DNA of 64,000 nt, taken from contig NZ_CP128647.1 of assembly GCF_030644205.1 (NCBI RefSeq), positions 868,001-932,000 of the forward strand. Direction: 5' to 3'. Source of the DNA: Mogibacterium neglectum (GTDB taxonomy: Bacteria > Bacillota > Clostridia > Peptostreptococcales > Anaerovoracaceae). A model generated the notes under the pieces. The model was not told the origin of the DNA and did not search any database. It saw nothing but the letters and a program-made list of their open reading frames with translations. This document shows, piece by piece, positions 60,085 to 63,677 of the stretch (positions are counted from its first letter, which is position 1; the number at the start of each line of letters is the position of its first letter). The translations under genes and the position numbers were made by a program.

Positions 60085-60171
60085 TGGTGCCGGCGATGGG
60101 GGTCGAACCCATACGGTATTACTACCACGGGATTTTGAATCCCGCGTGTCTGCCAATTCCACCACGCCGGC
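60085..60171 (-). tRNA. tRNA-Leu (CAA)
   Basis: The minus strand folds as a class II tRNA: acceptor GCCGGCG pairs with CGCCGGC, the TTCGA T-loop is present, and the CGGGA/TCCCG anticodon stem has loop TTCAAAA, giving anticodon CAA (codon TTG). The variable arm is long, as in Leu tRNAs. CCA is encoded. Confidence 0.93.
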
Positions 60172-60198
60172 AAAATTTTTATTTTTTTGTAAAAAAAA

Positions 60199-60280
60199 TG
60201 GTGTGGCTGACTGGACTCGAACCAGCACGGTCTCCCACATGCCCCTCAAGCATGCGCGTCTGCCATTCCGCCACAGCCAC
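60199..60280 (-). tRNA. tRNA-Leu (GAG)
   Basis: Acceptor GTGGCTG pairs with CAGCCAC. The anticodon stem CATGC/GCATG has loop TTGAGGG, giving anticodon GAG (codons CTC/CTT). GGTTCGAGTCC T-arm; CCA encoded. A good promoter lies 12 bases upstream. Confidence 0.92.
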
Positions 60281-60427: not shown

Positions 60428-61147
60428 CTAATAATAAAAACCTGTCTTTTCATCAGTATACTGCTTAAGTCTTAATTCATAAGCAGCCTTAGCCGTTTCG
60501 TAATAGGCTGGTATAAATTTAGACAAACCAATTTCATTCGCATAAACAATTGTAAAATCTGGATTAAGAACCAATAAAGGTCCTAGCAAATATGTGCCCA
60601 TAAAATTTTTATAATGAACACCCTCACGTGTTTCTTCTATGTTAAAACCGGGACCTCTGATTGTATTGAAAAGCGGCTCAATGTCGCTATCGTAGAAACT
60701 ATGACCAAATTGGCTTTTAAATCCAACTATCTTAATATCTTTATATATACCAACATAAAGAGAGTTAAAACGTTTGGCAAGGATATCTCTCTCTGTATGG
60801 AAGTTAAAAACTTCAAGACAGTCTATCTTCTCTCCAGACTTATCAATTATATAATTGCCAAAAACTTCAACAGCATTACCAGTCACTAAGAAACGTTGCC
60901 CTTGTTCTATTGATTCCTTTAATTCGTTAATATATATTGATAAATTATCTATAAAAAGCCTTTGACCGCGTTCGGTCATAGTCCCCCTGTACACAAGATC
61001 AACTTCACCCTTATTAAGAAATGCGGGACGTTCACCGATATTCGTTTCTATAATTTCTATTCCAGGATAAGAATCCATAAGATACTTAATATTTGCTGAA
61101 TCACCATACAGGTTGCTGAGCTCTGGATAGAGCATTTCGATAATCAT
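60428..61147 (-). CDS. gatD: GatD-like glutamine amidotransferase homologue lacking catalytic residues
   Basis: 239 residues. The fold match to GatD (glutaminase of the lipid II isoglutaminyl synthase) is clear: MLYPELSNLYGDSANI, VGFKSQFGHSF, GVHYKNFMGTYLLGPLL. In typical GatD the nucleophile is Cys in ICGGYQ and the His is in GTYLHGPLL. Here the first position reads LVTGNAVEVFG (T89 for Cys) and the second GTYLLGP (L188 for His). The protein is thus predicted unable to hydrolyse glutamine. It directly follows murT (TAAATG), so the pair has kept its operon. It may be a structural partner of MurT or have a new role. Confidence 0.8.
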   Translation of the reverse strand: MIIEMLYPELSNLYGDSANIKYLMDSYPGIEIIETNIGERPAFLNKGEVDLVYRGTMTERGQRLFIDNLSIYINELKESIEQGQRFLVTGNAVEVFGNYIIDKSGEKIDCLEVFNFHTERDILAKRFNSLYVGIYKDIKIVGFKSQFGHSFYDSDIEPLFNTIRGPGFNIEETREGVHYKNFMGTYLLGPLLVLNPDFTIVYANEIGLSKFIPAYYETAKAAYELRLKQYTDEKTGFYY

Positions 61148-62536
61148 TTATTCTACCTTCTCGTTATTATCAATACTATTTAGATATCCTTCTAGGAGTT
61201 TTCTGACCTTTCGTGCTGGAGAAAACGGATCAGTGCCATAGAGCAAAAATATGGTCTCCCCTTTTATAAACTTTAACTCTTTAATGCAATCAAAAGGTTC
61301 AATAACATATTTAATCTTATCTTCTTTAACTCCAGCTGAAAGTAGTCTGAGTTTAAAATCCAGCCCTCTAGATCCGGTCGTTACTATAGTTTTAATTCTA
61401 TCATCTGCAAGCAGTTCAAAATCCGCATCGTAAAGCCAGCACATATTCTCTGACCATGTAGTATCATCCTGAAAGTTGTTATTGAACAATAATAGCTCTT
61501 TTTCTCCAGGTTGTGCTTCAATATATTCAAATACTCTCGAACTCGCATAAGCGTTTCTATCTTTGCATAGAACAGAACTTAACTTAATCCCTCCAGCTTC
61601 GAATTCATTTAATCTTTCTTTTGTTATATTAACATTGTCTACTGCTGCTTTTATCTCATCAACTGAATATTCTAATTCACTAAGAGTTGCTATTAAAGTT
61701 AATTCATTATAAATATTGAAAGTTCCATTATTGAATAACTTAAATCTGCACTTCTCACCTTCAAGAGACACATTCATTGTCATGGAATCAAGATTAACAT
61801 CTGTGGCTAAGTAATCAGCAGCATATGATTTAAAATTACAATTAGGACAGTATGCCCTACCTATATTGCTATATCTATTTTTTGTATACTTCAATTTGGA
61901 ATTACAAATTGGACAAATTGGACAATCGTCAATCAGATTTGTGCAGGACTCTTTGTCAATAGCAAGTGAAGCGATGCCAAAAAAAGCTCTTTTATTGTCG
62001 GGACACATCAGTGAAGATATAAGATCATCTGCATTTAAAATCAGTCTGGTTGATTTATCGATATACGATTCTAGAATAGATCTCATATATTCTGGATGTC
62101 CGTTTCTCATAATTGAGTCACGAGATAAATTAGTGACCACTAAATAATCAATATGAACATAGGGAAATATTCTTCTTGAAGAAAGCTCGTCTATTTCAAA
62201 TACCGCCGTACCGTATTTATGTTTTCCAGTCAAACTTACACTTCTTATAAGAGATGTTGTAATACCGGTGATTGTATTAGAACCGGCAGAATTATTAAGC
62301 ACCTTCTCCCCTAAAAAAGTAAGAGAATCATTTAGTAAATTGGAGCATGTAGTTTTGCCGTTAGTCCCAGTTATCCCAATTATTCTATTAGGTAATTCAA
62401 TGTACCTGAGAAAATTTGGACATATTCTAATAGCAACTATACCGGGAAAGTTAGTGCCATTATGCCTAGTAATCTTAAGCGCGATAATAGATAGCTTTGC
62501 GACTAAGAGAGCGCAAAAAAAGCGCAATTTACCCAT
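61148..62536 (-). CDS. murT: MurT-like Mur ligase (lipid II isoglutaminyl synthase subunit homologue)
   Basis: 462 residues. Mur ligase ATP site ITGTNGKTT (residues ~55-63), a zinc ribbon inserted at ~205-233 (CPICPIC...CPNC) and a C-terminal DUF1727 domain, the MurT order. MurT activates the D-Glu carboxyl of lipid II; GatD supplies ammonia from glutamine. In MurT proteins a conserved DxSW-type segment precedes W(I/L)WDxDFE; as I recall it provides the Asp of the glutaminase triad (D349 in S. aureus). Here the segment reads SENMCWLYDADFE, with Asn 364 at the Asp position. The usual RDQLDRYGE motif is also changed (SRDSIMRNGHPEY). Divergence matches that of its GatD partner. Confidence 0.85.
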   Translation of the reverse strand: MGKLRFFCALLVAKLSIIALKITRHNGTNFPGIVAIRICPNFLRYIELPNRIIGITGTNGKTTCSNLLNDSLTFLGEKVLNNSAGSNTITGITTSLIRSVSLTGKHKYGTAVFEIDELSSRRIFPYVHIDYLVVTNLSRDSIMRNGHPEYMRSILESYIDKSTRLILNADDLISSLMCPDNKRAFFGIASLAIDKESCTNLIDDCPICPICNSKLKYTKNRYSNIGRAYCPNCNFKSYAADYLATDVNLDSMTMNVSLEGEKCRFKLFNNGTFNIYNELTLIATLSELEYSVDEIKAAVDNVNITKERLNEFEAGGIKLSSVLCKDRNAYASSRVFEYIEAQPGEKELLLFNNNFQDDTTWSENMCWLYDADFELLADDRIKTIVTTGSRGLDFKLRLLSAGVKEDKIKYVIEPFDCIKELKFIKGETIFLLYGTDPFSPARKVRKLLEGYLNSIDNNEKVE

Positions 62537-62583: not shown

Positions 62584-63618
62584 TTATTTTCGGAGCTCAT
62601 CCTTGAAGCTAGGTACAAGCTTTAGAATATCAGGGATAACTCCAATTCTACTAGGATTCTGATATGGAAGCTGCATGTAGTCATAAGCAGTATAATCATT
62701 TCCTTCAACAATCTTAGGTCCCTTATTAGTTACAGCGACGTCCCATCCTACATACCTCATCTCAGGAACCTTCATTGCTGCACGAAGAATCATGTCTTTT
62801 GCTTCTTTGAACATTGGTACCTCATAATTTGTTAAATCGTATCCAGTATCAGGATGTTTTGTATATATCAAATCTGTATCGGTATTTCCGCTATGAAAAG
62901 GAAAATGAACAACGCCTTTTTCTAAATCAATTGGAGCATGGATTCCATGAACATCGATAAATCGACCATCTACACCAAATTTTTGCGCGGCAAAGAACAA
63001 ATGTGGTTCTTTATCATCTCCGATAATCGTAATCATACGCATAGTATTGAGCGCTGGTTCATACACTTCACGAATCTTATCATGATTTATAAGATACTCT
63101 TCAACAACTCCAAATCCCTTTTCTTTTATATAGTCATAAAATTTTCGTGCATCTTCGAAGTCTGAAATTCTGATGATTTCAGCACCCTTCCCACATGAAA
63201 GATCAAGCATTTTACCAAATCCGACTTCATTTTCATTATAAAACCGCGTTGCCTCATCAAGATTGCAGTTAAGTGCATCAAGAAAATCTCTATCGATGAA
63301 CTCTTTAAAAACTTCATCGAATTTATTCTTATTATCGAAAATCTTTGCCTTTTCTGGGTTATTTAGGAAAGTGATTAATTTTTTACTTCGCATACGTGTC
63401 ATATACGTATCACGTGTTTTGTCGTCTAGCTCATAAAAATGATAAGTTATATAATCATAGTAACCGCTGCCGAATAATCTGTAGCAGTGGTAAATATCTC
63501 TTATAATGCTAGACCTACTTTTTCCACATCTTCGGTTAATCTCGGTAGCTACCTCATTTAATTTTGAGAATTTAGCTCCTGAAAGTACTCTAAGTTTATA
63601 ACGTAAATTTACACTCAT
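62584..63618 (-). CDS. ATP-grasp protein, sugar-transfer associated type
   Basis: 344 residues. The N-terminal ~80 residues are basic and helical, followed by an ATP-grasp-like domain: KMLDLSCGKGAEIIRI, a GFGVVEEYLINHDKI segment (nucleotide-binding hinge), PALNTMRMITIIGDD, and late VGWDVAVTNKGPKIVEGND (metal-binding D, E, N). This fits the 'sugar-transfer associated ATP-grasp' (alpha-L-glutamate ligase-related) group. It likely joins an acid to an amine, but the substrates are unknown. It lies 47 bases upstream of murT in the same direction, which suggests a cell-envelope role. GAGGTAGAGTT precedes the ATG. Confidence 0.75.
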   Translation of the reverse strand: MSVNLRYKLRVLSGAKFSKLNEVATEINRRCGKSRSSIIRDIYHCYRLFGSGYYDYITYHFYELDDKTRDTYMTRMRSKKLITFLNNPEKAKIFDNKNKFDEVFKEFIDRDFLDALNCNLDEATRFYNENEVGFGKMLDLSCGKGAEIIRISDFEDARKFYDYIKEKGFGVVEEYLINHDKIREVYEPALNTMRMITIIGDDKEPHLFFAAQKFGVDGRFIDVHGIHAPIDLEKGVVHFPFHSGNTDTDLIYTKHPDTGYDLTNYEVPMFKEAKDMILRAAMKVPEMRYVGWDVAVTNKGPKIVEGNDYTAYDYMQLPYQNPSRIGVIPDILKLVPSFKDELRK

Positions 63619-63677
63619 AACTCTACCTCACGTAAATCGAGACATATAATTTTATCACAAATATTACTCGCTCTCAA

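Follow-up and report, generated by a model that had tools for sequence, protein, structure and literature searches.

The 64,000-nucleotide stretch of the Mogibacterium neglectum genome analysed here (the window) encodes a MurT/GatD-like pair from which, as judged by alignment, the glutaminase triad is gone while the MurT ligase residues checked remain. The altered pair is a conserved family rather than a product of decay, and what it joins to a cell-wall precursor is probably not the nitrogen of glutamine. Glutamine-dependent amidation is the activity that defines MurT/GatD, which has been proposed as an antibiotic target. The altered pair is a widespread subfamily in the host family, is tied to an ATP-grasp ligase and is sometimes fused. 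Among the matches listed in our literature search, the titles and abstract openings described no glutaminase-dead MurT/GatD.

The window genome (1.75 Mb) is congeneric with Mogibacterium pumilum and M. timidum. Three genes are transcribed from the minus strand in the order ATP-grasp ligase, murT-like, gatD-like, with the following features.

60085-60280: two tRNA-Leu genes (CAA, GAG), directly downstream of the gatD-like gene
60428-61147, minus strand: gatD-like gene, 239 aa, putative pseudo-glutaminase subunit; ORF confirmed
60584-60586, minus strand: Leu188 codon of the GatD-like protein, His189 position
60878-60880, minus strand: Gly90 codon of the GatD-like protein, position of the nucleophile Cys94
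60881-60883, minus strand: Thr89 codon of the GatD-like protein, paired with Ile93 of the S. aureus nucleophile elbow
61148-62536, minus strand: murT-like gene, 462 aa, with P-loop GTNGKT, ExDE, four zinc-ribbon Cys and a MurT_C domain; ORF confirmed
61445-61447, minus strand: Asn364 codon of the MurT-like protein, Asp349 position (DTSW to NMCW)
62096-62122, minus strand: RDSIMRNGH loop of the MurT-like protein, residues 139-147, in place of RDQLDRYGE
62584-63618, minus strand: ATP-grasp ligase gene (PF14397), 344 aa, 47 bases upstream of the murT-like gene on the same strand
63649-63677, minus strand: weak promoter-like match, some 30 bases ahead of the ATP-grasp gene; the region has 11 such matches against 18.0 +/- 4.7 in shuffles

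The two genes remain paired and both members can still be recognised by sequence, which bears out the first-pass annotation to that extent. The GatD-like protein matches solved GatD (5n9m and 6gs2, E about 3e-17; 6fqb, E 2e-15) and the MurT-like protein matches solved MurT (7q8e and 6gs2, E about 3e-44), with a MurT_C domain at 70 bits against a cut-off of 25. Scores against the NCBIfam equivalogs are far below their cut-offs, at 74 and 73 bits for the GatD models (cut-offs 450 and 400) and 160-177 bits for MurT (cut-off 800). The third protein matches ATPgrasp_ST (PF14397) with 115 bits against a gathering score of 31.4; no solved relative of it was found by sequence, and a literature search on the family name gave no matching paper. 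A defence-system reading was rejected, as PADLOC gave one weak match, over the zinc ribbon of the MurT-like protein. Compared with the MurT/GatD isoglutaminyl synthase of S. aureus and S. pneumoniae, the window pair has the same homologous subunits, gene order, P-loop, Mg residues, four zinc-ribbon Cys and GatD GP..NP segment. It differs in carrying Gly, Leu and Asn for Cys94, His189 and Asp349, a rewritten RDQLDRYGE loop, extra residues before the DxSW place and an ATP-grasp neighbour.

In S. aureus, the replacements C94G or C94S and H189A in GatD abolish glutamine-dependent or glutaminase activity (PMC6113224, PMC5871853, PMC3266927). The HMMER alignment and the MAFFT alignments of 83 and of 128 GatD rows all pair Cys94 with Gly90 and Ile93 with Thr89. 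The first-pass annotation had put Thr89 in the place of the nucleophile, which is off by one residue; its view that the GatD-like subunit has no nucleophile stands, as do its pairings of Leu188 with His189 and of Asn364 with the MurT Asp (Asp349 in S. aureus). It had also named this Asp as the third triad residue. This is published for S. aureus, where D349N abolished activity in vitro according to the figure legend or severely reduced it according to the text (PMC6113224), but the S. pneumoniae variant D355A is reported to keep 28 +/- 10% of activity (PMC6085368).

To follow these positions across genomes, we sorted MurT proteins into five types, set by MurT loop motifs only, with GatD not used.

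Type I: canonical RDQLDRYGE
Type II: RDSxxRNxH, the window's type
Type III: KDQVQRNG[DE]P
Type IV: RDQxTRNGH and RDQPPRQG
Type V: RD[SNT]FxR[NS]A[NT]P, in Actinomycetota

At the Cys94 position of 128 GatD rows, Cys was found in 45/45 rows beside a canonical MurT and in 0/83 beside an altered MurT. His occupies the His189 position in 42/42 type I rows and 0/82 others, counting rows with a letter there. In this 128-row set, class II collects the rows left over once the other loop patterns are assigned, and L044, L047 (the L159 and L164 places), L048 (partial) and L226, L257 and L258 (the L056, L043 and L175 places) were left out of the counts. Thr stands at the Thr89 position in all 57 class II GatD rows, and Asn directly follows the former Cys position in 68/68 rows of types II, IV and V. 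The Asn364 column is more variable (N 39, T 14, D 2 and S 1 among 56 class II MurT rows). A second reading of 91 GatD rows found Cys in 4 canonical rows and in 0/87 others; here six rows fitted no pattern, and RDQIDRYGE with Cys and His was counted as canonical, KDQAQRNG as type III and the rest as altered. The two readings overlap in many loci, so their counts are not additive.

A conserved Cys and His elsewhere in GatD would have spoken against the first-pass annotation, but the invariant and 90% columns of 13 GatD-like orthologues contain no such substitute, and the Cys-His dyad of class I glutamine amidotransferases is absent from the window protein. Two candidate rescues were rejected. 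Thr89 as a replacement nucleophile falls opposite Ile93 and lacks a conserved His partner. A DTTW near Asn364 might be read as a shifted DxSW; relatives have DDATW, DDVKW or DAKHW there, and most share S-E-N-x-x-W. The glutamine-capturing Arg128 is ambiguously kept, as R126 or K125, since the alignments differ by one column, and it was therefore set aside as proof of amino-acid binding.

The ligase half gives a different picture. The P-loop, E114/D116/E117 and C208/C211/C230/C233 are invariant in 12 MurT-like orthologues. Among the 84 altered MurT rows, 82 keep the P-loop Lys (one row is truncated and one deviates), 83 the first Glu, all 84 the DE pair and D136, 83 R140 and 82 the hinge Arg. 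Largely kept as well are the N-terminal segment with GTNFPG and the GxN loop; the DNAAD stretch, proposed to contact the stem peptide (PMC6113224), is replaced. The changes in MurT cluster at the GatD contact, namely in the 135-143 loop, which work on S. pneumoniae describes as a potential path for ammonia, and at the negative-gate Asp, D355 in that species (PMC6085368). The loop residues D139, Y141 and E143 near this path and the gate Asp are replaced in altered MurT. The altered loop noted by the first-pass annotation is indeed RDSIMRNGH, conserved among relatives, with His147 and Asn145 as new conserved residues, each in 53/56 class II rows.

Substitution rates show constraint on both proteins. 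Between the window and M. pumilum, pN was 0.10-0.15 and pS 0.70-0.75 for the pair, and dN/dS was 0.05 for MurT, with dS saturated in 8/9 comparisons. Three changed catalytic positions could suggest decaying pseudogenes or a sequencing error. These data refute that explanation and leave it practically no probability: the same changes occur in dozens of genomes with open frames, under constraint, in agreement with the earlier judgement that this is not simple decay. A sequencing error at these codons is excluded, as M. pumilum, M. timidum and dozens of further genomes carry identical substitutions.

To see how widely the altered pairs are distributed, we searched relatives, 296 genomes of the host family, two phylum sets of 398 and 299 genomes, and 296 Actinomycetota genomes. 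A MurT match was present in 138/296 genomes of the host family, and the 125 that were read comprised 114 with altered and 11 with canonical MurT and none with both. These 125 are the 67 genomes with a match of at least 330 bits plus 59 with 229-293 bits (G569 is in both groups); 13 genomes with weaker matches were left out. The search scored the best five candidates per genome, so that further MurT could be missed; in 61 genomes with every candidate scored, none had both canonical and altered types. All 88 matches in the 67-genome group are altered (type II, with a few type IV or unassigned but Cys-less), and the second group consists of 46 type III, 11 canonical and 2 type IV genomes (G639, G569). 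Type III forms a second glutaminase-dead branch in 46 genomes of the host family (loci L046, L049, L050, L156-L158, L164, L165, L167, L169-L172, L174 and most of L328-L363). As 114 of the 125 genomes read have an altered MurT, a D-isoglutamine prediction based only on MurT homology would probably be wrong for this family.

Altered pairs are rare outside the host family. Among 398 phylum genomes there were two GatD matches above 200 bits, both from the host family, and the best 30 loci held one more altered pair (G129, type IV); the 299 phylum genomes held one type III above 600 bits. At least eight of the 296 Actinomycetota genomes held altered pairs, and the next-best 17 loci read were all canonical. 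In a MurT tree of 65 rows, made with a quick method and unrooted, type I formed one side of a branch (support 100), types II and V grouped together (99), and types III (100) and IV (93) each formed one group, with the attachment of III and IV not resolved.

The ATP-grasp gene, a conserved neighbour of the window's MurT/GatD type that the first-pass annotation left unmentioned, is the best functional lead. GatD adjoins MurT in 51/51 loci of this type. Of these loci, 28 have an ATP-grasp gene at most 1.3 kb away, 26 of them on the same strand; it is missing in the other 23, and some contigs end nearby. The 25 loci examined for types I, III and IV all lack this neighbour (type III, 0/14), and none was found near the Erysipelotrichaceae (L054-L056) or Actinomycetota (L281-L288) loci. 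By genome, ATP-grasp orthologues of at least 270 bits, a cut-off chosen after the scores were seen, occur in 56/67 genomes with the window's MurT type versus 9/229 others (odds ratio 124, p 2e-39, uncorrected for kinship). The remaining 11 of the 67 fall short of the cut-off, with weaker matches in G667 (260 bits), G672 (246 bits, adjacent) and G663 (218 bits). Because seven of the nine genomes with the ATP-grasp gene and no match to the window's MurT type form one genus group, the ATP-grasp enzyme can stand without this MurT; another of the nine, G639, has a type II GatD cut by the contig end beside its ATP-grasp gene. The window genome also has a second ATP-grasp paralogue away from any MurT (G000 C1:1226701-1227711, in L295; 420 bits), as do G001 and G003.

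Some loci depart from the simple pair. MurT and GatD are fused in one ORF of 741-759 residues, MurT first, in three Actinomycetota genomes (L283, L284, L285). Two pairs share a locus in L041, L130, L135, L144, L145, L149, L174 (type III), L311 and L312. In L130, L135, L144 and L145 a single ATP-grasp gene lies between two type II subtypes, and L311 and L312 also hold two type II subtypes with an ATP-grasp gene. A MurT-like frame with a degenerate P-loop (GTDDAADTS) lies at the contig start in L041 (2-1216), beside an intact altered pair, and is either a contig-edge artefact or a dead ligase.

It is very likely that these proteins form a glutamine-independent ligase complex with the GatD-like subunit as obligate partner. 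This claim is strong because the S. aureus GatD-C94G/MurT mutant lost glutamine use and kept NH3 use at pH 8.5, and still needed GatD, neither subunit working alone (PMC3266927). The same result offers a reason why a dead GatD would be retained: MurT would need it physically even with ammonia supplied. The laboratory mutant shares with the window pair the Gly at the nucleophile and the proposed physical need for GatD; the window pair is natural and conserved, also lacks the His and Asp, and has a changed MurT loop. An archaeal MurT-like branch reported in PMC11915815 is likewise without a working GatD, but there GatD is absent, whereas altered pairs keep it, even in fused form.

The first-pass annotation had offered ammonia, another amine or a changed substrate, and these remain the right set of options. 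Mogibacterium ferments amino acids, and amino-acid fermenters produce ammonia in quantity. Ammonia is the conservative choice of amine; D-isoglutamine would then still be made on lipid II, with the GatD-like subunit as scaffold only. In its favour, the C94G mutant shows this activity at pH 8.5. Nearly all altered rows also keep D136 and R140, the loss of which cuts activity in S. pneumoniae to 10 and 13%, respectively (PMC6085368). Against it, no ammonia use was seen with the S. aureus enzyme at pH 7.5 (PMC3266927), different but conserved residues now occupy the loop and gate positions, and the double pairs and ATP-grasp partner are left unexplained. We regard an ammonia-dependent amidase as unlikely, though a serious contender. 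That glutamine is still the source, hydrolysed by a glutaminase in trans that feeds ammonia to MurT, can be put forward as a possibility; the GatD-like subunit fills the glutaminase place, covalently in three genomes, and the window genome encodes a single MurT_C protein, which makes this highly improbable.

We lean towards an amino acid as the amine, for three reasons. New conserved residues have taken the place of those near the ammonia path. The double pairs and the ATP-grasp partner suggest a ligation in steps, of the peptide type. Finally, the window's MurT type is almost never found in one genome with another MurT type (one overlap, G569, in 296 genomes; Fisher p 1e-6, uncorrected), as if the types served one carboxylate. 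We infer the substrate, the amine and the order of steps as follows. MurT would phosphorylate a carboxylate with ATP, most likely the D-Glu alpha-carboxyl (or an equivalent acid) of a membrane-bound lipid precursor, as the kept residues suggest. GatD would not hydrolyse glutamine, and its reshaped elbow (Thr or Ser, mostly Gly, then Asn) may help to form the amine entry. With an amino acid as amine, MurT would again act as an ordinary Mur ligase, and the ATP-grasp ligase would add a further residue in the same pathway. Taken whole, a glutaminase-dead, ligase-competent branch that uses an amino-acid amine, extended by an ATP-grasp ligase, is a tentative reading to which we give slightly less than an even chance. 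Counting against this reading are the sufficiency of ammonia alone for C94G at pH 8.5 (PMC3266927), the ambiguous Arg128, the ATP-grasp gene's absence from 23/51 loci, from 11/67 genomes at the 270-bit cut-off, and from the Erysipelotrichaceae, Actinomycetota and type III loci, and its presence in genomes with no match to the window's MurT type.

A changed acceptor would alter this scheme, with the amine ligated to another membrane-linked acid, such as a wall polysaccharide or peptidolipid precursor. The name of PF14397, 'Sugar-transfer associated ATP-grasp', and the replaced DNAAD stretch are consistent with it. We consider it improbable, as the GTNFPG segment, D136/R140 and the GxN loop are largely kept, the MurT types seem to serve one site, and the ten recurrent neighbours scanned look housekeeping, transport or regulatory, with no polysaccharide gene among them.

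Returning to amino-acid ligation at D-Glu, group B walls carry a residue bound at the D-Glu alpha-carboxyl. Glycine in this position is reported for the wall of Intrasporangium calvum (PMC3035309), and ATP-grasp ligases form D-amino-acid cross-links in Gram-positive-type walls (PMC2922099). The window ATP-grasp protein is likewise tied, genetically, to a wall-type ligase, but differs from those enzymes as a PF14397 member with no solved relative found by sequence. The matches listed in our searches included, as far as titles and abstract openings tell, no paper naming an enzyme for the amino-acid step at the D-Glu alpha-carboxyl; on group B wall enzymes only PMC3266927 and PMC3035309 were useful among them, and on Mogibacterium wall chemistry nothing was usable. 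The dead pairs could be the missing amino-acid ligases of glycine-substituted or group-B-like walls, with GatD as an amine-binding pseudo-enzyme and the ATP-grasp ligase extending the branch, a proposal that we put forward with considerable doubt.

A separate observation concerns MurE. The MurE of the window genome (L208:8717-10252; G000 C1, about 1163716-1165251) carries EHNRFEP in place of the D[DN]P[RNA] motif of DAP or Lys enzymes. EHNRFEP also occurs in G001 and G003, and HNRSE in G048. Going by MurE, the stem peptide in the window genome may be unusual at position 3. Unlike Mogibacterium, other hosts of type II pairs retain DPR in MurE.
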